A stretch of 64,000 bases of DNA from Aphrocallistes beatrix (Eukaryota; Porifera; Hexactinellida; Sceptrulophora; Aphrocallistidae), in NCBI GenBank assembly GCA_963281255.1, contig OY725488.1, positions 7,909,524-7,973,523 on the forward strand. The letters run 5' to 3'. How positions within the stretch are numbered: the first letter of the stretch is position 1; each line of letters opens with the position of its first letter. Below, piece after piece: positions 11,271 through 46,804 of this stretch. The position numbers and the translations under genes are program-made. The notes beneath the pieces were generated by a model. It ran no database searches and was not told where the DNA came from. It saw nothing but the letters and a program-made list of their open reading frames with translations.

Positions 11271-12666
11271 ATTCTCCTCACCACACTGATATCATATAAT
11301 TAGTATACTCGAAATGTTACATCTGAAGATCACTTCATAATTTTCATTTTCATTTTGTTTTATTAGAGCTGGATTCGCTCACAATATATAGTATCACCTC
11401 GCATAATTTTAAAAGTAAGTACATTTGATATAAAGAAAAATTACTTTATTAAAGAGTATTTATCTATTCTTTTACTTTTAACTCCATTTTGCTCGTTGGT
11501 ATTTCCCTGAGTTAAACTTCATAGCATTAAAACAGGAATTTTATGTATTGGGTGTGTTTCTGTTTATGGAAGTTTTCCCTCAAATTTTCTGAACAAAAGT
11601 ATCTTGCACAACACGTACATCATATCTAATTTTGAACTCGTTCTCAAATACACAATTAAATCAGTTATTTAATTATCTTGCTGCCCCACGAGTTGAGTAT
11701 AATTGGATACTTGCGTGAATCCTTCTAACAGAATTGAATTTGCTTAGAACATATTTTGGTTATGAAATATTGTGTGCAAAAGTGTATTATACATACAACT
11801 GTTAGGCCTTGATAGATGGCTGTTCAAATTGAAACCTATATACGTACGACACATAGGACACTACAATGACCTGATTTCAAGGATTCTGCCTAGAGACTAT
11901 TTATTCGTCCTAGACTGGTATCTTCAGTATTTTTTGTTTGATTTGCAGAAATTGATTAGTGTTTATGTCTTCAAATTAATGCTCACAACAAGTTATTTCT
12001 GTCTCAGTTATTTCTGTTTACTTCCAGGCTGTTAGCTGATCGATCTTATTAAATGGAAATATTATTCTTTGACAAATGCATAGCTTCTGATATTGAAAAC
12101 TTCCGTGCTATGTGTCAGCGATGTGTTGAAATATATAAAACAAACAGAAATTACTTTATACCATACATATCACTGAACTGTTTAGAGGTAATATTGATGT
12201 ATCTCCTTCAAAATACTGAAATAGTGATAGGTATAGTACGTATCTTGGAAAATACACAGATCGGTTAACCAATTTGCCGTTAACTAACGCGGTTAGTCGA
12301 TTAAAACCGGGTAACCGCATCCACTTGTGTCACAATTAACTTTGAAAGATACAGCTACTCTAATATTTTGCAAATAATATATAAATCCAGTTTAAATATT
12401 ATCGATTCCTGTTTTACCTTGATGTGTAAATGTAGATTGATGTTAGTTCTTATTTCGTGGCCGTTTCAGTTAAAATTGATCACATTTGCGCGTTATAAAG
12501 TCCAGGTTTGCTAACAAACTCTGCATCTCGAATCAGTTTGATTTGTTCTGACTGTTCCAACCGTACAAGCTTAATACATAATATAATCCAAATTTGTTTT
12601 ATTCTCATAACATGCATACATATCTAATGATATCATTTATTCTGTCATGCTAGTAGATATTGCGCG
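11271..12666. other. Gene-free AT-rich stretch
   Basis: Short open frames at 11772-12035 and 12053-12268 lack protein-like composition and neighbouring splice signals that would extend them. Around 12260-12320 a motif rich in GGTTAACC/GGTAACCG looks like the edge of an old terminal-inverted-repeat element. I see nothing else. Confidence 0.45.
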
Positions 12667-14430
12667 ATGAGTAATTTTATACGGGACTCGAGCTCTAGCA
12701 TCCGCAAAGATAGAGCTTTCTATCTGATGAGACTTGAGGTAGTTGCGATGCAATTGATTTGTGGCCCCAGCAAACTCCCAATTCGTAACATGAAACCTAT
12801 TTTTAAGACAACCCCGGTAATATCAGCTTTCACTGGAAATGATCTCGTTGTCAATCTCATGAAGGAACTTCGAGCTGAGAGGAAGGAATCTATTCACGTC
12901 GCCTCGCAACTGTATAAACACGGTTATCTTTACTCTGTTGAGCAAAATGTTTCTACATTCAAAGATGACTCGACTCACTACCGTATGCAGTCCGAACATC
13001 TATGGCCGTCTCAGTGCAACAATCCGAATAACTTAGACTACTCCGCTTACTTGGAAAAGAAAATGCTAATGAAATACAAGTTAGCAGAACATGAGCAAGA
13101 AGCATACGACAGGTTCAGGGTGATATACTCTAAAAATTGGTATATGCTGACCAAGAAAGCTTTGACTTTTATTGACCAGGAAGAAAATACTGTGAAAGAA
13201 GATCGTAGCATTAGTCAAGGAGAGGAGAGGGCATTTTGGCGCCTTCATCGCCCCCCTCCTGGAGAACCTCTGGTTATGGAGGCGAGTATTCAAAAAAGAA
13301 ACCTTAACATTTCTGATACAACTGATTTTCAGGCTATTCAAGGTTTGGAGACGAAAGTTGACATTTATAGGAGATCAATACGACGGAACGGTGTAAAGCT
13401 CTCTCACTCTGTTGAGCTCGTAATCCAGTATGTTGATAGGGTCAAGAATACTGATCCATTCTTGAAGAAGAGTATTCATAACCCTTGGATCAACGATTCG
13501 AAAACCCCTCCCCCAGTAAATCCCAGCAGATTCGAACAGTGGAGTACATCTTTTGACTTGTTACTACGGGATAAATTGGGTCGGGAACTTTTTATGAAGT
13601 TTCTCTCTTCAGAAGTTTCGAGTGAAAACCTTCAATTCTGTGAAGAAGTCACCAAGTATAAAATGTTACCCTCTTCACACCTCAGGGCAGTTGCTCCCCA
13701 GATATTTTTCCAATACTGCGGCGCCACGGCTAAACGCGAGATTAATATCGATGGTAAGACACTTCGAGCTGTGAGAGAACGAATGGCAAAGCCAGATAGA
13801 TACACGTTTGATCCAGCACAGAATTATATCTACGATCTAATGCGAAAAGATCCATATTACCGTTTTCTAAAGTCTAAATTTTTTGCTGACCCAGCAAAAA
13901 TTTATTCCATGGAAAGAAAGGGCCGTCGAGATACTAGAATTCTACCTCCCCCCCTGAATGCCGAGTCGATGCACCCGTATGGAAACAGAAATCATGATAA
14001 TCCCCCAGATATGCACCCTCTCCAAAGGAGCAATTCAATGGACGCCTTGGTGGAATCTCTTGTCGATCCTTGCAAAGCGGATCTTCTTTCAGATACGCAT
14101 CATTCCATTAATGCGGAAAGTCTCCGGGGAAAACATGCTTTTCAGAGAAATACCAGCGCTAACAATTTACTGCTTAATTCCACACCAAATGACATTGCTC
14201 AATTGGATGAAGTAGACGAGAGAAATGTCCCCTTCCACGAAACTAGCAAATCCAACTTCGAGAGACACTACCCTCACAACAATAATTCTTTTGATTCGAA
14301 ACTTTCTTCTTTTGACGAGATGTCATTAACCAAACCTTTATCACCGAGAATAAAGAACCTACCCAGACCAAAGACCTCTGTTTCCCATTTGCAACTGGAG
14401 GAGACTTATGTGAAAAAGGCGAATTCCTAA
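12667..14430 (+). CDS. R7-family regulator of G-protein signalling (RGS6/7/9/11-like)
   Basis: Intronless, 587 residues. R7 RGS proteins pair with G-beta-5 through a G-gamma-like domain and speed GTP hydrolysis on Gi/o alpha subunits. The domain order is the classical one: DEP (about 35-110, with AFTGNDLVVNLM), the DHEX linker (about 120-190, with YDRFRVIYSKNWYM), GGL (about 195-285, with AFWRLHRPPPG and the conserved DPFL...NPW), and the RGS box (about 290-410, with SENLQFCEEV and the closing YPYYRFLKS-like YYRFLKSKFF). A Ser/Asn-rich tail of about 170 residues follows. The absence of introns in a gene that is multi-exonic in most animals is notable. The reading frame is intact, so it is not a decayed retrocopy. 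Confidence 0.9.
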   Translation: MSNFIRDSSSSIRKDRAFYLMRLEVVAMQLICGPSKLPIRNMKPIFKTTPVISAFTGNDLVVNLMKELRAERKESIHVASQLYKHGYLYSVEQNVSTFKDDSTHYRMQSEHLWPSQCNNPNNLDYSAYLEKKMLMKYKLAEHEQEAYDRFRVIYSKNWYMLTKKALTFIDQEENTVKEDRSISQGEERAFWRLHRPPPGEPLVMEASIQKRNLNISDTTDFQAIQGLETKVDIYRRSIRRNGVKLSHSVELVIQYVDRVKNTDPFLKKSIHNPWINDSKTPPPVNPSRFEQWSTSFDLLLRDKLGRELFMKFLSSEVSSENLQFCEEVTKYKMLPSSHLRAVAPQIFFQYCGATAKREINIDGKTLRAVRERMAKPDRYTFDPAQNYIYDLMRKDPYYRFLKSKFFADPAKIYSMERKGRRDTRILPPPLNAESMHPYGNRNHDNPPDMHPLQRSNSMDALVESLVDPCKADLLSDTHHSINAESLRGKHAFQRNTSANNLLLNSTPNDIAQLDEVDERNVPFHETSKSNFERHYPHNNNSFDSKLSSFDEMSLTKPLSPRIKNLPRPKTSVSHLQLEETYVKKANS

Positions 14431-15316
14431 ATTCGAGAGAGCTCCGATTTTTATTTTGTTTTCTGAATTTGCTTACTCCCCTTGATTATGCATACCTCTT
14501 TGCTTTATACACATTATCATGTAATATGTGTCTCATCTGTATATTTCGTACCAATAGGCTAGCTAATGCTGTACAAACATATGTGTTTTGTTATTTTATT
14601 TCAATGTTTAATTATTTGACAATCTTGAAATGAGATATTGATATTTAGCCTAATGTCGTATTGCGTAGTATATAGTAGTACTTTCTGTATGGTCAAAGTG
14701 GTTAAAATTTCTTTTTATGGAATAAATACGCATAATATATTCAAATAATTCCAATGTATTGTAGCTCCTAAAATGTCCTGAATTATTTCAGAGATATTAG
14801 TTAACTTCTAAGCTATATATGAATCCCTATTAGGCTAATTCCCACTGAGATCATTTTTGAAAAAAGTTTTATAGTATGAATTAATCATTTAAACAAGTGA
14901 CTCTGCTTAATCGGGACACTTTGGTCCCGGTCCCGGAGAATTTATCCCGATTAAGCGGACTTCCAAATAACCGATGAAATTTAGTATTAGCTTCTATGTA
15001 TGGGAACCATTCCGTTCCTGGAGACTTGTCCCAATTAATTAAGCGGAGTTGACTGTAAATTGATTATTATGCAATGATCTCTTTTCAGTGGATGTACGTA
15101 AATTGAATCATATTAGATTCAATAATAAGTCAAATGGTCATACAGTAGGAACCCCGCGTATCTACCCGCCCCGGTACGCGGGGTCTAGGTGAACTCTAAT
15201 ATTAGGCAAAATAATCAAGTTTGGAACCCCCAACCCGTACAGCACCTAACCACTGTAATAGAATAACTTCAGTTGTCAGAACCTCAGTGCAGTGGTTACT
15301 CTCGGCCGTTTGAGGA
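14431..15316. other. Intergenic spacer with pogo-like miniature elements
   Basis: No gene seen. Contains a miniature element at about 14894-15055 (listed separately). At 15144-15185 there is a fragment starting TACAGTAGGAACCCCGCGTA with a perfect 9-bp hairpin, CCCCGCGTA/TACGCGGGG. Confidence 0.5.
14894..15055. mobile_element. Pogo/Tc1-like miniature element
   Basis: The left end CAAGTGACTCTGCTTAATCG matches the inverted right end CAGTCAACTCCGCTTAAT, with a shared inner GGGACA. The CAGT...CTC..CGCTTAAT ends and the adjacent TA on the right side are typical of non-autonomous Tc1/mariner (pogo-like) elements. About 160 bp, no coding capacity. Confidence 0.55.
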
Positions 15317-16213
15317 ATGAACGAGGCTCAGAGGGATGAGCTGAGTGCCCTGGAAGCAGTCTACCCCGATGAAATGAAAACCGTTAACAAGCTTCACCAT
15401 TCCTACTCCATCCAGCTGGAGGAGTCCGGACACTCTCTCACCCTCTCCTTCGAGTTCCATCCTGGTTACCCTGCCCTTCTCCCACCCAGATTCCAGCTGG
15501 AATCCTTCAGGTTAGACGAGGTATCAAAAGCCGAACTTCGAAACGAACTTATCGGTATATTTGAAAAAGAAACAGAAGTGTTGTTCTTATGGGTGGAACA
15601 TATCAAAGAATTTCTATCTCGCCTTCCTCCCATTTTAAGTTTAAGTCCAACACGGACACGTGAAGACTCCTCAAAATCCAAAGTTTGCAGCGAATCCATA
15701 AGAGTAGAGCAGCTATCTGTGACTGACACTAGGACCCACACTGAGATAGAAATATTCCATAAAGAATCGTTGCTGGACAGAGAGAGCCGCACTCCTGAGA
15801 CGGAAATATTCCATGGAGAATCAATCGTGGACAGGAGGAGTGTGTTCCAGGCTCACCTGTGTAGAGTGACGTCAGTGGATGAGGTGGGGCGTATGTTAGA
15901 CACTCTGAAGCAGAACAAGAAAATTGCTCAAGCGACACACAACATCCTGGCCTACCGCTTCCAGCCCCCGCACAAGTCCGTGTGGGTGCAGGACTGCGAT
16001 GATGACAGGGAGCACGGGGCTGGCGGAAGGCTCCTGCATCTGCTGCAGTTCTCTGGTGCCGAAGGAGTGGCAGTGGTTGTCACGAGGTGGTACGGGGGAA
16101 TCCAGCTTGGTCCGGACAGGTTCAAACACATCAATAATGTTGCCAGGACACTTCTGGTTAACTGTGACGTCATCAAAGGAGCTGAGAAGGATAGTAAAAA
16201 GAAGAAGAAATAA
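15317..16213 (+). CDS. IMPACT: IMPACT-like GCN2 regulator (RWD + UPF0029 domains)
   Basis: Intronless, 298 residues. IMPACT binds GCN1 through its RWD domain and so limits activation of the eIF2-alpha kinase GCN2 under amino-acid starvation. An N-terminal RWD domain (about 1-105, ELSALEAVYPDEM, with the HPGYP motif) is followed by a linker and the UPF0029/YigZ-like domain (about 170-290). The latter has RFQPPHKSVWVQDCDDD, the glycine-rich HGAGGRLLHLL and the hallmark VVVTRWYGGIQLG. The linker carries a short internal duplication (about residues 142-174) built on EIFH.ES..DR. The C-terminus is lysine-rich. Length is close to the animal family. Confidence 0.9.
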   Translation: MNEAQRDELSALEAVYPDEMKTVNKLHHSYSIQLEESGHSLTLSFEFHPGYPALLPPRFQLESFRLDEVSKAELRNELIGIFEKETEVLFLWVEHIKEFLSRLPPILSLSPTRTREDSSKSKVCSESIRVEQLSVTDTRTHTEIEIFHKESLLDRESRTPETEIFHGESIVDRRSVFQAHLCRVTSVDEVGRMLDTLKQNKKIAQATHNILAYRFQPPHKSVWVQDCDDDREHGAGGRLLHLLQFSGAEGVAVVVTRWYGGIQLGPDRFKHINNVARTLLVNCDVIKGAEKDSKKKKK

Positions 16214-16358: not shown

Positions 16359-17680
16359 ATGGCAACAGCTGACTCCGAGTGCGGCTGTCTCATCCAGGAA
16401 CCCTCACAGCTGGAAGAGGCGAAGGAGATGGCGCTGACTGTAAGAGAGGCCGGACTTCCGATTATGGACAGATCTGCTGGTCTCTTCAGTTTGTTTGGAT
16501 TCGGAAAGTATCCCAACTGTTTTATTTCTTCTGAGTTGGTGGACTTGCTGATACAACTTGAACGTGCCAAAAACCGCGAGGATGCTGTAAAGATTGGACA
16601 GCTGCTGATGGACACAGATCTTATCCACCATGTGTCTGACAAACAGCAATTCCAGGATGGGAAAGAGTTCTATATTTTCCGAGAGGATGAAGGGGAGAGC
16701 AAGGGACCTAGTGCTGCTTCCATCCGACAGATAAAGGGCGCCAAATGTGGCTATGCACTGAAGAAGGGTTGGGTATTCTGGTCGAGGTAACGCTTGTACA
16801 TTATCACTAATTTATGTGAATAACACAATTAATTAATTAACTCTGTGCAGATACTACTTGGCATTATCCTGTCCAAACGCTAAACAGCTGTTCCTATACA
16901 GACAAGAGCTCGACTCTGCTCCTGTGTTTGATTATTCCTTCTCCGAGGCTACCATCCAGCCAGACGTGTCTAGGAACTCTCAGAAGCTGATAATTGACCT
17001 AACTCTCACAATTGAGAAATCTGTGCTCTTCACAGTGGCATTCGAGACTGAGGATGAGCTCTTCGCATGGACCACTTCATTTGGGATGGCTGGAGCTAAG
17101 GTTCGTATTGAATCATTTAGATGCAAATGGTTACTGTTACATATGATTAATGCACTTGCAGGTACTGGAGACAGTAGGTGCAGCAGGGCCCAACGTGGCA
17201 GATGCTAACAGCGTGTTCGATTTCACAGCCATCGATATAGAGGGCAAGGAGTACAAGCTTGAAGAAGCCCGCGGGAACGTGCTACTGATCGTGAATGTAG
17301 CCTCTTCCTGAGGTTTGGCTGACAAGAACTACCGAGAGCTGGTGGATCTTGACACTCAGTACTCGGCCCGCGGCCTGACAATCCTAGCCTTTCCCTGTAA
17401 CCAGTTCGCTGGCCAGGAGCCGGGCACGAATGAAGAGATTGTACAGTTTGCGCAGGGATATAACGTCAAGTTTAAAATGTTTTCCAAAATCTCAGTTAAC
17501 GGCAGTCAGACCATCCCACTATATGCCTACTTGAAATCCCAGAAAGCTGGGCTATTAGGGTCTTTCATAAAGTGGAACTACACCAAATTTCTCTGTGACA
17601 GACAGGGCCAAGTCGTGATGCGCTACTCCCCGAACATCTCTCCGCTGTCGATTGTTCCTGACATTGAGAAGTGCATCTAA
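16359..17680 (+). CDS. DEP-PH-glutathione peroxidase fusion selenoprotein (GPx4-like)
   Basis: Three exons: 16359-16786, 16851-17100 and 17162-17680. The protein has 398 residues if TGA 17309-17311 is read as selenocysteine (residue 276). A DEP domain (about 30-108) and a PH-like domain (about 125-225, spanning both introns) precede a full GPx4-type peroxidase (about 235-398). The active site is complete: NVASS-Sec-G, Gln311 in FAGQEPG, and Trp364-Asn365 in KWNYTKF, with the spacing of GPx4. Sequence after the TGA is as conserved as before it, and a SECIS element follows at 17708-17786, so the TGA is not a stop. GPx4 reduces lipid hydroperoxides in membranes. The DEP and PH domains would tether the enzyme to phosphoinositides or membrane receptors (inference). 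I know of no such domain order in studied animals. Confidence 0.88.
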
Positions 17681-17707
17681 CCGCGTGCATTGCTATTGAA
17701 TGAGCCG

Positions 17708-17786
17708 TTAAGAAGGGCAGAACTGTGAAGACTCAGCTCTTAACCTCAAGGGGAGCTGAATCCGATTTTTAGACGCCTCTTCTTAA
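17708..17786 (+). promoter_or_regulatory. SECIS element (selenocysteine insertion)
   Basis: It lies 28 bases after the stop codon of the selenoperoxidase. Lower stem TTAAGAAGGGC (17708-17718) pairs with GCCTCTTCTTAA (17775-17786). An internal loop leads to the core quartet GTGA (17725-17728) facing CGAT (17763-17766). The upper stem GACTCAGCTC pairs with GGAGCTGAATC, with one mismatch. The unpaired apical AA is at 17742-17743, thirteen bases after GTGA, as in canonical eukaryotic SECIS elements. SBP2 binds this fold to recruit the selenocysteine-specific elongation factor. Confidence 0.85.
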
Positions 17787-17881
17787 TGACGAATTCATCT
17801 AGCTAGTTTATTTTGTACTTTGATTGCTTTTAATCTTTTAAAACATTTTTAAGTTTTGGACTTATTGAATCGGAATTTTAT

Positions 17882-18651: not shown

Positions 18652-21435
18652 ATGAATCAGCTACTACTTCCTTCTTCCGCTTCTCTCCCGACTCTCTTCC
18701 TCATTATTCTGCTCCTTGTCTCTCTGATTGCATTCCTACTTTTTTTCAAACAACACCTCCTATGCTCAAAAGGTTCAATCAATATCAGACTGATCCATGA
18801 AGAGAATGTCTTCAATCAAGAACTGATCTCTCTCATTCCCCAATTTGGACGCAACTACACGCCTCCCTGCTGTATGCGTAGTAGGATTCCGAGTACCTTA
18901 TTATTCGGCCTGCTCGGACGGTAAATACTATTCGGACTGAAACGAATATTCGAAATCGTAACGAACGAATATCCGAATATTCTTTCGTTTAGATGAGTAA
19001 TAATTCATACACTCCACTTGATATTTGTGGGTACTGAAGTCTAGAAAAGGTGTGAACCTCTGTTAAAATCACCCAAGGTAAAATCCAACTTCACGTGCCA
19101 AAAATTCTTTTTTTCGACTGAAGAACTCAACAATGCCACAATTCATTGTATTTAACGCAAACTAATATTCGTTAGGATCATTTCGAACGAATCTCCGAAT
19201 ATTCGGTATATTCGTTTCAGCCCTAAATATTATAATATTTTATAACCGCTTGAAGATCCACAATTTTAACCAAATTATTAACATTGACATTCTCGCAGGT
19301 TTGGAAGTAGATGTACCAACCCAGTAGGCGTGAGGCAGAGAATACCTCTACCTGATGGAACAGTCACCAATTTTGACCTCTATTTGGACCCACTAGTCCC
19401 AGATCCTCTCCTTGAGAATGTGATACTCGTTCTAATTCCTGGCATTTCTAACCACAGCGAGTCAGACTATGCCAGGGCTTACATCGAGTATGCCTCTTCT
19501 CAGGGATTTAAGGTTGCTTGTCTGAATCATCTGGGTAGGCATTTATTCGTGTCTAGCTTCAATTTAGTCATTAAACTCTATTCATCATATTATTGCTGTG
19601 TGTTGTGTAGGTTCTAACTGTGGGGAGAAGATCAGCCAAGAAGCTCCTCGTTTCCATACATATGGAGGCACGGGCGACTTCTCCAAAATGATAGATTTTC
19701 TCCGAGATCAGAACCCTGGCGTGAAGTTCGTCGGGGTGGGTATCTCATTGGGCGCTAACCTTTTGCTCAAGTACTTAGGCGAGTGTCCAGAGAGACAAGC
19801 CTACTTCCTGTGTGCTCAGTCCTGGTGTCAAGGCTACGACATTGAAGCCTGCACCCCTCACATGAATAAGGTGTGGAGCGGAGCGAAACTGTTCAACCAC
19901 CTCGTCGCAAGCAAAAAGAAAAGAGAAGTGAATGAGATTCTACACATCCTACTTGCTGGTCCTCCTGCCCACATGAGGCCAGTGCATAATTCCGTCCCAT
20001 CAGCCAATTCTCCATCCTCAGAAGACGAATCTAAACCCATGCTAGCAGCCAATAGTCTCACCCCCGATATCGCGGTTGCTGCCCCCCTCTCTCACCCCCC
20101 CGCCCCAGTTGTAGGAGAGGGAACTCCACTTCCCAGCTGGGTCCCAACCTACGCCTACCAGAGGGATGGGAGAGAGGTGTGCAAGAGAGACCCGTCCAGG
20201 GATACGAATGGGTTCTTGATTGAAGGCTGGGATGCCGTTCCGCCCTTCGATGTTAACGAGGTTAGAACCAAACTTTTATGTATCATGGCAATAATACTTT
20301 TAGTATGAGAATTAACCTTACTCGCTAGAGTAGAAAGGAACTTAAATCCAATAGAAATATAATTGAGAATAAAGGACTACAAAATACAGCAGATACTATA
20401 ATTATGCCCTCCTACGAGCACTGCGTGGTGTTATAATTATAGTGTGACTATTAGTAGCATGTTACATACTCCTAATCGTCACATCCTCACTATTAAAACT
20501 CGATTAATGTATATCGGTATATATCTCTGTAACGAATTGATTGAAGAAACTGCCAGGCACAGAAAGCTGATTTTTGGCATGTTCTGTCTTTTGGCTATGG
20601 CTCCACTGAGTTCTGACCTCAGACGGAAATGTCGACTCATCATGGAATTATGACATCATTGTCACCTTTTTTATGTATAATTAGAAATTTCAGTTTTTCC
20701 ACTATAACTCAGCCATTTTAGGTGATAGAAGGCTGAAATTTTAATAGAATGTGTATATTAATATATTTCAAATATGATACAACTATCATCAAAAAATGAT
20801 GACTCATCACTCTGTTATGAGTCTTATGACGTCATCATATGCATCAAAAATTGACAAATTTTGTGATTTTTCGAGTGATATCGATTATATCAGTAGGACA
20901 GACGTAGAGATGTTATCTACCTTATAATTAATCAATGTGAGCCTAGGCTCCCAAAAAGGCACCTCCAGCGGACACAAAGTGTCAGCCAGCCGCGCAGCGC
21001 AAGCAAGCGACGCGTGCTTGTTACATCATTATATTATGGTGTGTACTTATATTCTAGTTCAACCGCGCTACTAACATCGGCGCACTTGACACTAGTTTTA
21101 TTTCTCGATTGCTCGGATTCAGAACGCGGGAAGAGTTGTACCGCTGGAGTAGCTCTGCCCACGTCATGGACCAGATTACAGACTTGCCAGTTCTCCTCGC
21201 GAATTCGAGAGATGACCCTCTCATCCCCTGGTGGGTGATAGAGGAGATCGTGACGAACCACTGCAGAGTCAATGATAAGGCGATAAGCATAATAACAAAG
21301 CACGGAGGACATTTGGGATATTACGAAGGGTATTGCTGCGCTAGAAAACGGGTGTCTTGGATGGACAAAGTCTCGATTCGACACGCCAAGAGTGTTGTTC
21401 AAATGAAGTCTGGTGATTATACCGACCGTGTGTAA
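18652..21435 (+). CDS. ABHD1/3-like alpha/beta hydrolase, tandem copy A
   Basis: Four exons: 18652-18920, 19299-19534, 19611-20260 and 21058-21435, giving 510 residues. An N-terminal membrane anchor (about 8-35) is followed by the hydrolase fold. The nucleophile Ser214 sits in GVGISLG, the acid is the Asp pair in SRDDPL (437-438), and His470 sits in HGGHLG. This arrangement is typical of the ABHD1/2/3 group, ER-associated lipases or phospholipases. A Pro/Ser-rich insertion (about 285-350) makes it longer than copy B. Intron 1 carries a miniature element and intron 3 a 545-bp repeat. Exon 4 begins with a stretch (FNRATNIGALD) unlike copy B, so the start of that exon is somewhat less sure. It is followed by copy B 330 bp downstream. 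Confidence 0.85.
18933..19224. mobile_element. Miniature element in ABHD copy A intron 1
   Basis: The left end CTGAAACGAATATTCGAAAT is mirrored at the right by CGAATATTCGGTATATTCGTTTCAG followed by CCCT, so the right terminus read inward is AGGGCTGAAACGAATAT. This terminus resembles hAT ends. No matching 8-bp target duplication is visible. Confidence 0.5.
20479..21023 (-). repeat. Dispersed 545-bp repeat, copy 1 (in ABHD copy A intron 3)
   Basis: This is the reverse complement of 44067-44613, recognisable along its whole length. Shared blocks include ACTATTAAAACTCGATTAATG, AATTGATTGAAGAAACTGCC and GACAGACGTA. At the GC-rich end lie hairpins built on CGGACACAAAGTGTC and a CGCTTGCTTGCG-like stretch, here partly degraded. 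No protein is encoded. Confidence 0.8.
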
Positions 21436-21767: not shown

Positions 21768-23923
21768 ATGCTATACGCCTTTCCTTTCATACCTGGGCTG
21801 CTATTTACAGGTGTCGGCTTTCTATTATTTCTGAAGAATTTCTCCTTTAGAAAGAGATCCTCCAATGTCACTCTCAGACACGAGGGCAGTACCTTCATTC
21901 AGGAGTTGATCTCTCTCGTTCCTTTGCTTAGTTCAGACTACAATCCTCCTTTCTGGCTGAAGTGTAGTATCATCCCCACCTTTATATTTGGACTGATTGG
22001 ACGGTAATAAACTCTTGACTGCTTTGCGACTCCTTGTCCAGACTGTATTGCATGTTGCAACATCAGTTGCTAACTACTAATCTTAGTTTTAAGCACCATA
22101 CCGTACTACGGATACTTTGTTCTCGTCGACCTTTTGTAGGTTTGGGAGAAAAATGTCAGATCTGGTACCAGTTCGGAAGAAAATTGACTTGCCAGACGGG
22201 ACTAATCTCAAAATTGATCTGTATTTAGAGCCGCTCGTTCCGGAGCCTCCCCTTGCTGACGTGCTCCTGGTCGTGATCCCTGGCATTTCGAACCATAGCG
22301 AGTCGACTTACATCAAGAGCTACATCGAGTATGCGTCTTCTCAGGGATTTAAGGTCGCCTGCTACAACCATCCTGGTGAGTATGCGTAGTTATATTTTAG
22401 TGCAGCTCCTGTAGGGAGATGTCTTTATGGCATGGACGGCGTTCTACGTCCGTCCGTCCGTGTGTATGTATTACTTCCGGTTTTTATAAGCGTCTATTAA
22501 AACCCTCGCCTGGCTAGGTCTCAAAAGTATAAATAGAGAAAACCCCACTTTCATTTTCACTTTCAACATTCCTAGCCAACCGCGGGTTAAACGATATAAA
22601 TAAGATCTTGGTAATGTGGGGTATTTCACTTTATAGAATCCAATTTTCTTTTTAGAATAATGTGAATATTTTATGAATTAAAACATATTTTCACACATAG
22701 AAAGCTCTAATGTGAATATTTCTTATTGTTTCAAATGATTGATTTTTCGTATCGGCATCCCTCTAGACACTTACCTGTAGCTGCACTATCGGTCTGTCGA
22801 CTGACATTTTATAATGTTGTATGAACTTTACGCTGTGTTTCTACGAATATAGCATCGCTACCGAACGAAGATCTGACCCCTAGCGCACCCCGCATGTTCA
22901 CCTACGGAGGCACCGGAGACCTGGCAGCCATGATGGACTACCTCATAGCGGAATATCCTACCATGAAGTATTTCGGAGTTGGATTCTCGCTGGGAGCTAA
23001 TATTCTCCTCAAGTATTTGGGGGAGCAGCCAGAAAGGCAGACTGCTTTCCTGGGCGCTCAGTCCTGGTGTCAGGGGTACGACGCCACCAGATGCATTCCT
23101 TACGGGAACCGTATCGAGTACGGAAGCTTCCTGTTCAATTACCTGCTCGCCACGAGGCAAAGATCTCTCATTTCAAGTCAATATCTCTATAAACTATTTA
23201 ATGGACCGCCACTGACTTCGGATAAACTCGGTAGCGATTGTGGGTCGGATTCCCCCTCGAACTCCTCTGAGGAGAGTGTGCTGCTTCCGGACTGGGCGCC
23301 TACCTACGCTTACCGGAGAAGAGGGAGGGTGAGGGGGGAGAGAGACCCTTCTAGAGATGTCAACGGGTTCTTGATGGATGGGTGGGATGAAATCCCGCCC
23401 TTTAATTTTAACAAGGTACTAACTAGTTCGACTCTTTGAAACAGACACATTTACATCGAAAGTAATGCCAAAACATTACATAGAAACTACATACGTACTT
23501 GCGTAGGAATACCAAGGTTTACTATGTTAATGAATTTATGTTAATGACGGGTTAATTCTTTCTTAGTACAAGAGCTCTCGGAGTTTATTGGACTTTGACT
23601 CTGCCTTCACTTGCCCTCTTCTCGGCTTCAAGAATCCAATTGAAATGTATCGTTGGAGCAGCTGCTACTATGTGATGGATCGTATTAAAAACTTTCCACT
23701 TCTCCTTGTCAACGCCAGAGATGACCCTCTGGTTCCATGGTGGACTGTAGAGGAGATTGTCGATAACTATTGTAAGACTAACGCCTGTGCAGTGGGTGTA
23801 CTGACGCGTTTTGGAGGACACTTGGGGTTCTATGAGGGTGCCTTGTCCTGTGAGTCTCTTACCTGGTTAGACAGACTTTCTATTCAGCATGCCAAGGCGA
23901 TTGTGCAACTCAAGTCGTCATAG
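21768..23923 (+). CDS. ABHD1/3-like alpha/beta hydrolase, tandem copy B
   Basis: Four exons: 21768-22003, 22140-22375, 22853-23415 and 23567-23923, giving 463 residues. Exon phases are identical to copy A, showing a tandem duplication of the whole gene. An N-terminal hydrophobic anchor (about 5-25) precedes the hydrolase fold. The nucleophile is Ser203 in GVGFSLG, the acid lies in ARDDPL (397-398), and His430 in FGGHLG. Conserved blocks IPGISNHSES and YIEYASSQGFKVAC are nearly identical in both copies. The expected role is a membrane-associated lipid ester hydrolase; the substrate is unknown. Intron 2 contains a miniature element with a second element nested in it. Confidence 0.88.
22395..22812. 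mobile_element. Miniature element with AGTGCAGCTCC ends, copy 2
   Basis: The same left and right ends and inner blocks as copy 1 at 301-764. It lies in intron 2 of ABHD copy B and is itself interrupted at 22503-22586 by a smaller element. Confidence 0.65.
22503..22586. mobile_element. PiggyBac-like miniature element, copy 1
   Basis: An 84-bp unit starts CCCTCGCCTGGCTAGG and ends CCTAGCCAACCGCGGG, imperfect inverted ends sharing GGCTAGG. TTAA follows directly on the right, and TTAAAA precedes on the left. The CCC...GGG ends next to TTAA recall piggyBac. A second copy sits at 42759-42865. It contains a TATAAAT box-like motif and TTTCATTTTCACTTTC. Confidence 0.6.
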
Positions 23924-39465: not shown

Positions 39466-40654
39466 TATACAAGGATATCGAATACTAATTTGTAAAATTG
39501 AATACGAACATAGTATAACAAATAATCTAAAAGTCATTGTAATGTGGAGGAAACACTCGCTTCAAAAAGTTGGCACGAGGAGAGTAATCTCCGTTGGGTT
39601 AACAACATGTTGCCATTCACTATCAAACTCTAACTTAGACCAACTACCGCTCTGTCTATCTTAGCTCCACCGAAGCGTCGTCGCATCGACAGACAAATGA
39701 CAGTTACCCTCACGGTCTGTACTCTCTACACGAGTGTCCGGAGACTTTCCCCGAAGCAGGTTCCAAATGAATAGGGAGCTTCGAAAGTGAATCTTCCCGT
39801 GCCTTGATATTCCATGTTCCTTGTTTCTATTTATAACATGATGCATTAGAATATATCAAAATAAGGGTCGATTATAAATGTTAACGGACGCAACTCTTAT
39901 TCATGAAATAGCATTATTAATAAGTCAAGGAGCTTAATCCATTAATTGATCTAGATCTTTGGAAAATGGAACCCTTGTAAAGTTGTGATAAAAATGTAGG
40001 TTTCTCTTCATTGATCTCTATTTGTCACGTACGTATTTTGAAATTTTTGAAAATTTTACAAACTATTCACCCAGTTTTAATAAGAAATAAGTTGGATTGT
40101 TAAAAATATGACATATCATAGAATAATGCTCTTATTGCAGTAAGTACTAGTAATTGTGTATTTAGCCCCTGCTTGCTGTTGTGGTAGTATTTGGATAACT
40201 GGCTATGGTGGATAGACATCGCAAATAATACGTCTATTTCTTGCTGATATTAGTACATAGCACGTCCTAGTATATAAATAGCCATAGGTATATTTTATGT
40301 GTCAAGTTTCTGGAGAAATACAATATTAGAAGTACCTTTATCCAGCCTGCAGCAATGCCAATATTTTGCTGTATGCATGTATCATAAAATAGTTTTCTCT
40401 ACCGCAGTGGTTCTTAACCTTATTTACACGATTTCCTCCTTCGTGGTACCCAATCATGATTTTTCCCCTTGTATTTCTACGCATCCCAAAATATTGAACT
40501 AGGTATGAAAAATTTTTATTCTACCAACACACGATAGTAACTGTAGTGTGTTGGAAATGTCCATTAGATAGATAACATTAAATACACAATATGTTACAAG
40601 TGTGATATATATATTATAAAAAATAGATATGCAGATACGTATGTATGTGGATTT
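39466..40654. other. Gene-free spacer entering the segmental duplication
   Basis: No gene. From about 40215 onward the sequence is paralogous to 43830 onward. At 40406 this copy has CAGTGGTTCTTAACCTT, a hAT (Charlie-like) terminus, where the other copy has none, so it is a later insertion. Its right end is not clear. Confidence 0.55.
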
Positions 40655-41844
40655 TTAATATCTCTGCCAAATGGGATTGTGTCTACTACAGTTATAATTG
40701 TTTTCAAGAAGTCTCCTGATCAATTTGGGGTCTGTATAGCACCCGTGCCTCCTGAAACGAATAATCTTTTTAATTTTTGTGACCAGGAACTTCACTGAAA
40801 CAATGCAATAGGGAATCAGCATGATCAATCCTCCAAGCATCAGTGTCAACTTCTCGAATACCGTAAAAACAGCCATGAATATTTGAAAGTTCTGACTATT
40901 TGGGTCAAATTTCCAATTCATTCCAATCTCAGTGCCGTATACAATGTTTATCCACTTCGGATTGAAGATGAGCATGTACACGACTGGAAAACAGGAGTTA
41001 ATGAGAATTGTTATGTACACTAATATTAAGGAAGTCGCCAATATCCCTGATGCTATTTTGAATTCTAGATGCACTATTTTGAAATAGCTAGCTGCGCTGG
41101 GATCGTGCTCGTGGAACTTGGCGTCGAAATAGCGTTTGTAAAGCAGCTTAATTAGCTTGGATCGAGCTCTGAGGATGAGTATTAGTTCAGTTATCATGAC
41201 CACTTGGAGAAGAACTCGTTGGAATATTATCAATGGATTTATAAATCCAGTTATTGCAATAATTGCAACCGCTACGGAAAAGTAGCAGTATTTACACAGG
41301 AGTATGGTTCTCTTATAGAAAAACTCATAAGAATCCCTCATGTACTCTGTCAAAATTCGTGTTTGTACCACCAACAGCAAGACTGCTATGAATAATACGG
41401 TAGTGTGGACCCTCTTACCGATTGAAATTATTAAAAACTCCATTGCAATGTACATCTGTTCACTGGTCAATGTGAACGTGTACAAATGATGAGATAACCA
41501 TCCGAGTGGTCTTTGAACACTTTGCCCATGGCATTTGCTGCTATAACAATGCCACACTCATAGAGACATATAAAAAGAAGCAAGATCCTTTTGACCTGCT
41601 TTATTTTATAATTGCGTCTTTCAAGCTGCCATTCCGCTTCAGGTTTTAGCAGCCTTGACTTGTAGGCGTTTTTATGAATTCTGAATTCTCTCATCAGCAC
41701 ACACACGAGATAAACCGACCATAAACTTGACAGAAACATTATCAGAATACCTTCTATTTCCAAAATTAAGATAAAGGACCGAGTGATATCTAGGTTAATT
41801 CCTTTTAAAATGTTGAGTAATGAAGTTTTGTTTTCAGATTCCAT
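40655..41844 (-). pseudogene. Broken copy of the duplicated seven-helix membrane gene
   Basis: This is a close paralogue of the intact gene at 45096-46280 over its full length. The N-terminal part reads from ATG 41844 to about 41487. The frame is then lost: relative to the intact copy there is a net 8-base gain in the segment after DGYL (41478-41490 region), and the rest continues in another frame to 40655. No splice signals would remove the extra bases cleanly. Elsewhere the two copies are near identical, so the break is recent. If transcribed, it would give only a truncated protein of about 125 residues with two membrane helices. Confidence 0.75.
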
Positions 41845-45095: not shown

Positions 45096-46280
45096 TTAAT
45101 ATCTCTGCCAAATGGGATTGTGTCTACTGCTGTTATAATTGTTTTCAAGAAGTTTCTTGATCAATTTGGGGTCTGTATAGCACCCGTGCCTCCTGAAACG
45201 AATAATCTTTTTAATTTTTGTGACCAGGAACTTCACTGAAACAATGCAATAGGGAATCAGCATGATCAATCCTCCAAGCATCAGTGTCAACTTCTCGAAT
45301 GCCGTAAAAAAACACATGAATATTTGAAAGTTCTGACTATTTGGGTCAAATTTCCAATTCATTCCAATCTCAGTGCCGTATACAATGTTTATCCACTTCG
45401 GATTGAAGATGAACATGTACGCGACTGGAAAACAGGAGTTAATGAGAATTGTTATGTACACTAATATTAAGGAAGTCGCCAATATCCCTGATGCTATTTT
45501 GAATTCTAGATGCACTATTTTGAAATACCTAGCTGCGCTGGGATCGTGCTCGTGGAACTTGGCGTCGAAATAGCGTTTGTATAGCAGTTTAATTAGCTTG
45601 GATCGAGCTCTGAGGATGAGTATTAGTTCAGTTATCATGACCACTTGGAGAAGAACTCGTTGGAATAGTATCAATGGATTTATAAATCCAGTTATTGCAA
45701 TCATTGCGACCGCTACGAAAAAGTAGCAGTATTTACGCAGGAGTATGGTTCTCTTATAGAAAAACTCATAAGAATCCCTCATGTACTCTGTCAAAATTCG
45801 TATTTGTATCAATAACAGCAAGACTGCTATGAATAGTACGGTAGTGTGGACCCTCATATCGATTGAAATTATTAAAAACTTCAGTACAATGTACATGTGC
45901 TCACTGGTTATGTACAAATGCTGGAGATAACCATCCGAGTGGTCTTTGAACACGTTGCCCATGGCATTTGCTGCTATAATAACGCCACACTCATAGAGAC
46001 ACATGAAAAGAAGCAAGATCCTTTTGACCTGCTTTATTTTATAATTGCGTCTTTCAAGCTGCCATTCCGCTTCAGGTTTTAGCAGCCTTGACTTGTAGGC
46101 GTTTTTATGAATTCTGAATTCTTTCATCAGCACACACACGAGATAAATCGACCATAAACTAGACAGAAACATACCCAGAATACCTTCTATTTCCAAAATG
46201 AAGATAAAGGACCGAGTGATATCTATATTAATTTCTTTTGAAATGTTGAAAAGTAATGAAGTTTTGTTTTCAGATTCCAT
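45096..46280 (-). CDS. Orphan seven-helix membrane protein, intact duplicate
   Basis: Intronless, 394 residues from ATG 46280. I do not recognise the family. Hydrophobic segments lie near residues 22-50, 84-108, 128-165, 187-208, 210-228, 262-293 and 325-360. Loops are rich in Lys/Arg, and N-terminal Asn-Lys-Thr is a possible glycosylation site, which fits an outside N-terminus. It shares the PYCI motif after helix 7, the ITEL motif in helix 5 and the helix-2 C/E pattern with the gene at 1451-2554. A near-identical but broken copy lies at 40655-41844. The family is therefore present three times in 45 kb. Plausible as a lineage-specific receptor, but no known signature is visible. Confidence 0.72.
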   Translation of the reverse strand: MESENKTSLLFNISKEINIDITRSFIFILEIEGILGMFLSSLWSIYLVCVLMKEFRIHKNAYKSRLLKPEAEWQLERRNYKIKQVKRILLLFMCLYECGVIIAANAMGNVFKDHSDGYLQHLYITSEHMYIVLKFLIISIDMRVHTTVLFIAVLLLLIQIRILTEYMRDSYEFFYKRTILLRKYCYFFVAVAMIAITGFINPLILFQRVLLQVVMITELILILRARSKLIKLLYKRYFDAKFHEHDPSAARYFKIVHLEFKIASGILATSLILVYITILINSCFPVAYMFIFNPKWINIVYGTEIGMNWKFDPNSQNFQIFMCFFTAFEKLTLMLGGLIMLIPYCIVSVKFLVTKIKKIIRFRRHGCYTDPKLIKKLLENNYNSSRHNPIWQRY

Positions 46281-46804
46281 TCTTGCGTTTAGTAATGTTC
46301 AAAGTTTAGAGAGTGAGATGATTGTAATTATACATAATTTTACCATTGTTCTGTTTATATAGCTAAAGTTTAACACCATACTGTACCACTTTATAAAAGT
46401 AGAGAATCAAAGTAATCTATTTGACTGATTACATGCTATGAGCTGAGATCTCCATGATTACATCATTATGATTAGTAAATCATCCCGTTAGCATTTATTA
46501 CATTTAATTCATTGCTGATTCCTCCACCCTAAGTTCAGGTTAACATGGAGGTCGATGAACTAAGGAGGTCTAGCATGGATGAATTTATTAGAGTATTCCT
46601 TTGGGAAATTCCCATTTATTTAAGTAAGAGCGGATCAGCATCACATATTATCTGAATCAAGCATGATGCGTACGGGCATGAGTATCGTTAGCATATTACT
46701 GACAGTATGTTCTAGTTGTTTCGGTGACCCCTCTGGTTCAAATATGTTTTCCAATTAAGCGGATTCTCCTGTGATTATAACACTTAAACTATACAATAGA
46801 TAGA

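Follow-up and report, generated by a model that had tools for sequence, protein, structure and literature searches.

The locus carries one open spliced frame of 398 residues (16359..17680) on the forward strand of the window, by which we mean the whole 64-kb stretch of DNA analyzed; the frame encodes, in order, a DEP domain, a PH-fold domain, and a GPX4-type glutathione peroxidase (GPx). Its features are as follows.

16359..16786, +, exon 1: the start codon, a DEP domain matched over residues 48 to 107 and, by eye, the first PH strand
16787..16850, +, intron 1: 64 bp, GT-AG, falling between PH strands 1 and 2
16851..17100, +, exon 2: remainder of the PH-fold domain, modeled as six strands and a C-terminal helix
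17101..17161, +, intron 2: 61 bp, GT-AG, phase 0, at the PH/GPx boundary
17162..17680, +, exon 3: GPX4-type peroxidase domain, preceded by a short linker and closed by stop codon TAA
17309..17311, +, Sec codon TGA: residue 276, aligned with the catalytic position
17706..17788, +, 3' UTR SECIS element, from our own scanner and a fold

An IMPACT-like open frame, recognized by eye (15314-16213, +), stops just 145 bp upstream of the start codon of the fusion. The window also holds an RNase MRP RNA gene (39571-39805, -; 97.1 bits) and, by eye, a neighboring pair of alpha/beta hydrolase-like genes (19282-20308 and 22825-23439, +) and frames resembling multi-pass membrane receptors (1451-2569, 40655-41557, and 45096-46298, -), the last two of which are closely similar. 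An AT-rich hairpin at 18929-18996 (+) matched a microRNA no better than chance (E 0.66) and may mark one end of a small mobile element.

Spliced frame and DEP-PH module

The original prediction of a single spliced frame joining a DEP domain, a PH-like domain, and a complete GPX4-type peroxidase was borne out by an open frame, GT-AG joints in phase, and domain matches, and its second intron does lie at the PH/GPx boundary. The two introns of approximately 60 bp are consistent with a compact genome.

It can be envisioned that the locus instead yields two products, a DEP-PH protein ending in or soon after intron 2 and a single-domain GPx begun at an ATG at 17150 or driven by an exon-2 promoter, or that fused and single forms both arise from it. 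The ATG is in frame, inside intron 2 and four codons ahead of exon 3, and could start a GPx-only product; exon 2, if left unspliced, stays open to 17208; and the intron-2 donor, GTTCGT, looks weak, deviating from the usual consensus. We nevertheless consider separate products unlikely: splicing at the GT-AG sites keeps the frame across the domain boundary, and the stretch between the Trp of the last PH helix and the GPx motif VNV is 54 residues here, 53 in the database protein P0225, in which the DEP-PH-GPx order recurs, and 51 in five other fusions (P0020, P0061, P0123, P0146, and P0183). Because the same order is found in P0225, and probably in oomycete proteins, a real fusion becomes more likely.

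Searching the translated model against Pfam placed two of the three predicted domains above their cutoffs, the DEP (PF00610, 69.9 bits against 32.7) and the peroxidase (GSHPx); the PH profile gave no match at E<1 in the spliced protein. The PH assignment comes from structure. The model of exon 2 has six strands and a C-terminal helix, the first strand of the PH domain would fall in exon 1, and all 50 matches listed by one structure search were PH or PH-containing proteins. Another search, also with 50 matches listed, returned mostly PH domains, together with two Mis18 proteins and one PTB domain, and just one match had an E value of ≤0.001. These models support the view that the residues after the DEP domain would adopt a PH fold.

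The nearest solved relatives of the DEP domain are those of DEPTOR and P-Rex, both signaling proteins, the first DEP of DEPTOR scoring 58.3 bits. Two genes upstream of the fusion lies a 599-residue open frame with a DEP domain (12631-14430, +), by eye an R7-type RGS protein; derivation of the DEP studied here from that DEP/RGS-like neighbor was considered and rejected, as merely 3.7 bits connect them.

Coupling of the enzyme to G proteins or phosphoinositides, as originally suggested, was not supported by charge or motif, although it may still occur. The DEP domain is acidic (net charge -5, pI 4.8), the PH domain is near neutral (net charge 0, pI 6.4), and a motif scan of residues 121 to 165 found no basic phosphoinositide motif of the form K/R-x(4-14)-K/R-x-K/R. 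Many PH domains lack this motif. Judged from sequence, a protein partner would be at least as likely a contact for the DEP-PH module.

Peroxidase domain and selenocysteine decoding

The GSHPx domain scored 134.6 bits against a curated cutoff of 27, and the active-site residues Sec, Gln, Trp, and Asn are all present, as predicted (U276, Q311, W364, and N365), completing the GPx catalytic tetrad. The first three rows of a PDB ranking, at 173 to 180 bits, were a designed GPX4, human GPX4, and the GPx of Schistosoma mansoni, so that after one designed protein the nearest natural solved relatives are human GPX4 and the Schistosoma enzyme; GPX7 (118.6 bits) and human GPX1 (85.2 bits) followed further down. 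On the helix that reads QFAQGYN here and EFAAGYN in GPX4, at the place of the resolving Cys of thioredoxin-type GPx, the protein has Ala; the fusions P0061 and P0225 have Val. Since Ala occupies this place, as in GPX4, and the tetrad is complete, the likeliest reaction predicted from the sequence would be glutathione-dependent reduction of lipid hydroperoxides.

The prediction that the fusion is also a selenoprotein was strengthened by several lines of evidence. Behind the stop codon, the 3' UTR folds (17706-17788) with a lower helix that is long, a GTGA core (17725-17728), an upper helix, an apical loop beginning near AA (17742-17743), and a 3' core with GA at 17764-17765. With a score of 19.0, this element ranked first when both strands of the 64 kb were scanned (583 candidates), the next elsewhere scoring 14.2, and it exceeded all 206 control stretches (best 14.2, median 9.4), each of 1,200 bases and overlapping by half; the scanner was devised after the GPx element had been seen by eye, and the version used for the controls also admitted CC for AA and a longer loop. 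Rfam gave no SECIS match in the region of the gene, and its SECIS_1 model matched four places genome-wide, all elsewhere and none over the cutoff.

A tRNA of the decoding machinery and other probable users of that machinery are present. The genome has a tRNA-Sec (75.9 bits against a gathering score of 47), and every one of its seven matches to Rdx, which is SelW-like, carries one in-frame TGA (loci L025 to L031 of genome G000, several of them grouped on C6 and C8, both contigs). In six of these loci, the best SECIS candidate, of the GTGA type in four and the ATGA type in two, lies 47 to 80 nt past the stop. Their scores of 12.0 to 14.9 overlap the top of the control range or slightly exceed it (best control 14.2), so the weight of these candidates comes from their shared place and core rather than from the score. 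GTGA-type cores predominate among the elements found here; likewise, 12 of 21 SECIS elements detected in Amphimedon are reported to be of the GUGA_AA type, including that of its Gpx (PMC3473315), and on this ground a sponge is the likely source of the DNA.

We conclude that, with high probability, the TGA at 17309 is read as Sec. Were it a true stop, the gene would encode a 275-residue DEP-PH protein followed by a decayed GPx remnant, which is what the standard code alone would give; however, past the TGA the frame runs on without interruption as GPx-like sequence, a SECIS element follows it, and the genome holds a tRNA-Sec and the seven TGA-containing Rdx matches. We rejected that reading as highly improbable.

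The fusion may be the sole GPx of this animal. In the genome searched (G000; 100.5 Mb, 28 contigs), the locus was found by each of four queries: the Pfam profile, its own peroxidase part, P0017 (an unlabeled animal-like GPx), and a degenerate DNA pattern for FPCNQF. No second GPx gene was detected in searches run exon by exon, which a GPx divided into short exons could escape; the sole other match came from the P0017 search (E 0.53, 27% identity). A sponge survey reports GPX7 as the commonest kind and GPX4-like sequences from demosponges (PMC9925728). Apart from the peroxidases, the genome, which is that of an animal, gave 151 matches to cadherin repeats and 19 to the homeodomain, some of the latter reading by eye as Msx-, Bar/Bsh-, and POU-like. 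A Wnt search matched neither this genome nor the control genomes and so carries no weight as to the kind of animal.

Relatives and origin of the fusion

No close orthologue of the fusion is known. Residues 1 to 240, used as a query, returned nothing at E≤10 among 1,090 candidates, and scanning of prokaryote and viral contigs, where little was expected, gave no relative. The compared protein collection contains no U or X in any sequence; Sec forms would therefore have been cut or lost, and the lack of close relatives is weak evidence. Gene predictors end a model at TGA, and the present case illustrates how fusions with Sec can thereby be overlooked. Cys stands at the catalytic motif in 107 of the 111 readable proteins (119 examined, plain GPx included; 8 unreadable).

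More distant fusions are present in the databases. P0225, a 416-residue protein whose record is labeled Batrachochytrium salamandrivorans BASA81_005555, has DEP (6.3e-13), PH (0.0075, under the Pfam cutoff), and GPx (5.2e-36) in the same order, and P0232 has DEP and GPx without PH. The nearest solved relatives of both DEPs, as of the DEP studied here, are DEPTOR or P-Rex; a structure search with the P0225 model, in which the DEP part is of low confidence, listed only GPx and GPx-like structures. In an alignment of P0225 with 25 oomycete or unlabeled proteins (A2), Pfam matched PH at E≤0.1 in 8 of 26, including P0225, and DEP at the same threshold in P0225 alone. A profile of the N-terminal parts of 24 proteins (23 from A2, plus P0090) nevertheless matched a profile of 11 DEPs with a score of 34.9 (E 2.3e-5, probability 76%), against ≤14.3 for 60 column shuffles, and P0090 gave a partial DEP match at 0.039; P0225 against the oomycete profile alone gave an E value of 0.0023 and a probability of 12%. 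On these profile matches, the oomycete N-terminal part is probably a divergent DEP. A profile search likewise brought up oomycete and unlabeled proteins; among the best 120 of its 733 matches, at least 35 span 94% or more of P0090 (trimmed to 436 residues), the first sequence of a query that itself included P0020, P0061, and P0090. GPx sequence also occurs in two oomycete records whose names are aldehyde dehydrogenase and ammonium transporter (P0195 and P0220); these are perhaps merged gene models.

The original prediction knew of no described protein with this order. That stands for the print searched: no DEP-PH-GPx order was found among the papers listed, judged by title or abstract start and with most subscription journals outside coverage, and the algal selenoprotein fusions described in the accessible part of one report, SELENOM with other domains and GST-MSRA, do not include it (PMC7539508). 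It fails for the databases, given P0225 (DEP-PH-GPx), P0232 (DEP-GPx), the PH matches in A2, and the DEP-profile match of the 24 proteins. Judged by these sequence matches, water-mold fusions resembling DEP-PH-GPx probably exist in the databases, unremarked.

Whether such proteins share one origin was examined in two trees. The first had rows P0183, P0044, and P0004 removed by the cutting rule, and both bacterial rows were also left out of the second; the group named insect includes the unlabeled P0017, P0024, and P0058, the oomycete group the unlabeled P0061, P0179, and P0187, and the plant group the unlabeled P0064. Both trees place the GPx of the fusion with the animal group (support 91/91 and 86/90, not starred), its nearest neighbors in the second being P0017 and P0024, and both unite the GPx domains of the oomycete type, P0225, and P0232 in one group (89/86 and 99/95).

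One explanation may be that the animal and stramenopile DEP-PH-GPx proteins descend from one ancestral fused gene that was lost or split in most lineages. The domain order is common to both groups, and forcing the GPx of the fusion into one clade with the other fusions costs 3.2 log units and was not rejected (p-AU 0.238). The DEP domain scores 40.7 bits against that of P0225 (38% identical over 95 columns, E 1.7e-8) and 19.9 against that of P0232, versus ≤12.6 against the eight DEP loci found elsewhere in the same genome, which include single-exon pieces. Against descent from one fused gene, the best trees keep the GPx in the animal group, the first DEP of DEPTOR outscores the P0225 DEP, and DEP-PH scores hardly more against the oomycete profile than shuffles do (20.8 versus ≤20.3 in 40, probability 1.7%). 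We regard a single ancient fusion as a tentative proposal, somewhat less probable than its converse. The wider idea is doubtful, namely, that DEP-PH-GPx is an ancient, overlooked family of oomycetes and animals in which Sec has been kept here, in a sole GPx, so that GPX-based membrane protection would depend on an enzyme tethered by its module.

Proposed role and comparison with known systems

We postulate, with a probability of roughly two-thirds, that one gene gives one spliced 398-residue protein in which an N-terminal DEP-PH module places a GPX4-type, single-Sec glutathione peroxidase in the cell. Computed for this reading were the open frame after splicing, assignment to the DEP and GPx families, a PH fold, the SECIS element, tRNA-Sec, the other TGA-containing selenoprotein genes, and the failure to detect a second GPx. 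The peroxidase domain would reduce lipid hydroperoxides using glutathione, and the DEP-PH module would set its location, presumably by attaching to a partner protein or to the cytosolic face of a membrane. Should no other GPx exist, GPX-type protection from lipid peroxidation would fall in this animal, probably a sponge, to the tethered enzyme alone.

Alternatively, the protein could act mainly as a redox relay, the DEP-PH module taking the peroxidase to a signaling complex, where it would oxidize or sense rather than repair membranes. The nearest DEPs belong to signaling proteins, and an acidic DEP and a neutral PH domain fit protein contacts better than acidic lipids; however, the sequence is of the GPX4 type with a Sec active site, and with apparently no other GPx, general peroxide repair likely rests on the fusion enzyme. 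We consider such a signaling role rather improbable and favor the module-placed peroxidase. An animal whose apparently sole GPx bears DEP-PH would let one ask whether the location of the enzyme, besides its activity, decides protection against lipid peroxides, and the oomycete proteins provide a natural Cys counterpart for comparison.

GPX4 is known as a single-domain protein and is the central enzyme against ferroptosis. The peroxidase domain described here is 55% identical to human and S. mansoni GPX4 (the human row being the mutant 7l8m); GPX4 likewise has Sec or Cys, Gln, Trp, and Asn and aligns without a long insertion, whereas the Sec-Trp spacing here is two residues shorter than in human GPX4, and GPX4 has no front module. 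Pleckstrin (PH-DEP-PH), which is not known to contain an enzyme domain, likewise has DEP followed by PH, and its C-terminal PH domain ranked fourth for our PH model, but the Pleckstrin 2 DEP is distant (E 0.4). In the epoxide hydrolase-GPx fusions of moths and butterflies (P0059 and P0063, with the unlabeled P0058), Pfam lists likewise show a GPx joined to another module, with a different partner domain and, in P0058, Cys. P0225 is a Cys enzyme where the fusion has Sec, and it is a single record of unconfirmed taxonomic label. The oomycete PH-GPx proteins (P0020, P0123, and P0183, with the unlabeled P0061) share the order DEP-like, PH, and GPx in approximately 400 residues or more, as well as a similar PH-GPx linker; in contrast to the fusion, they have Cys in the sequences read, and their GPx domains group apart from its own.
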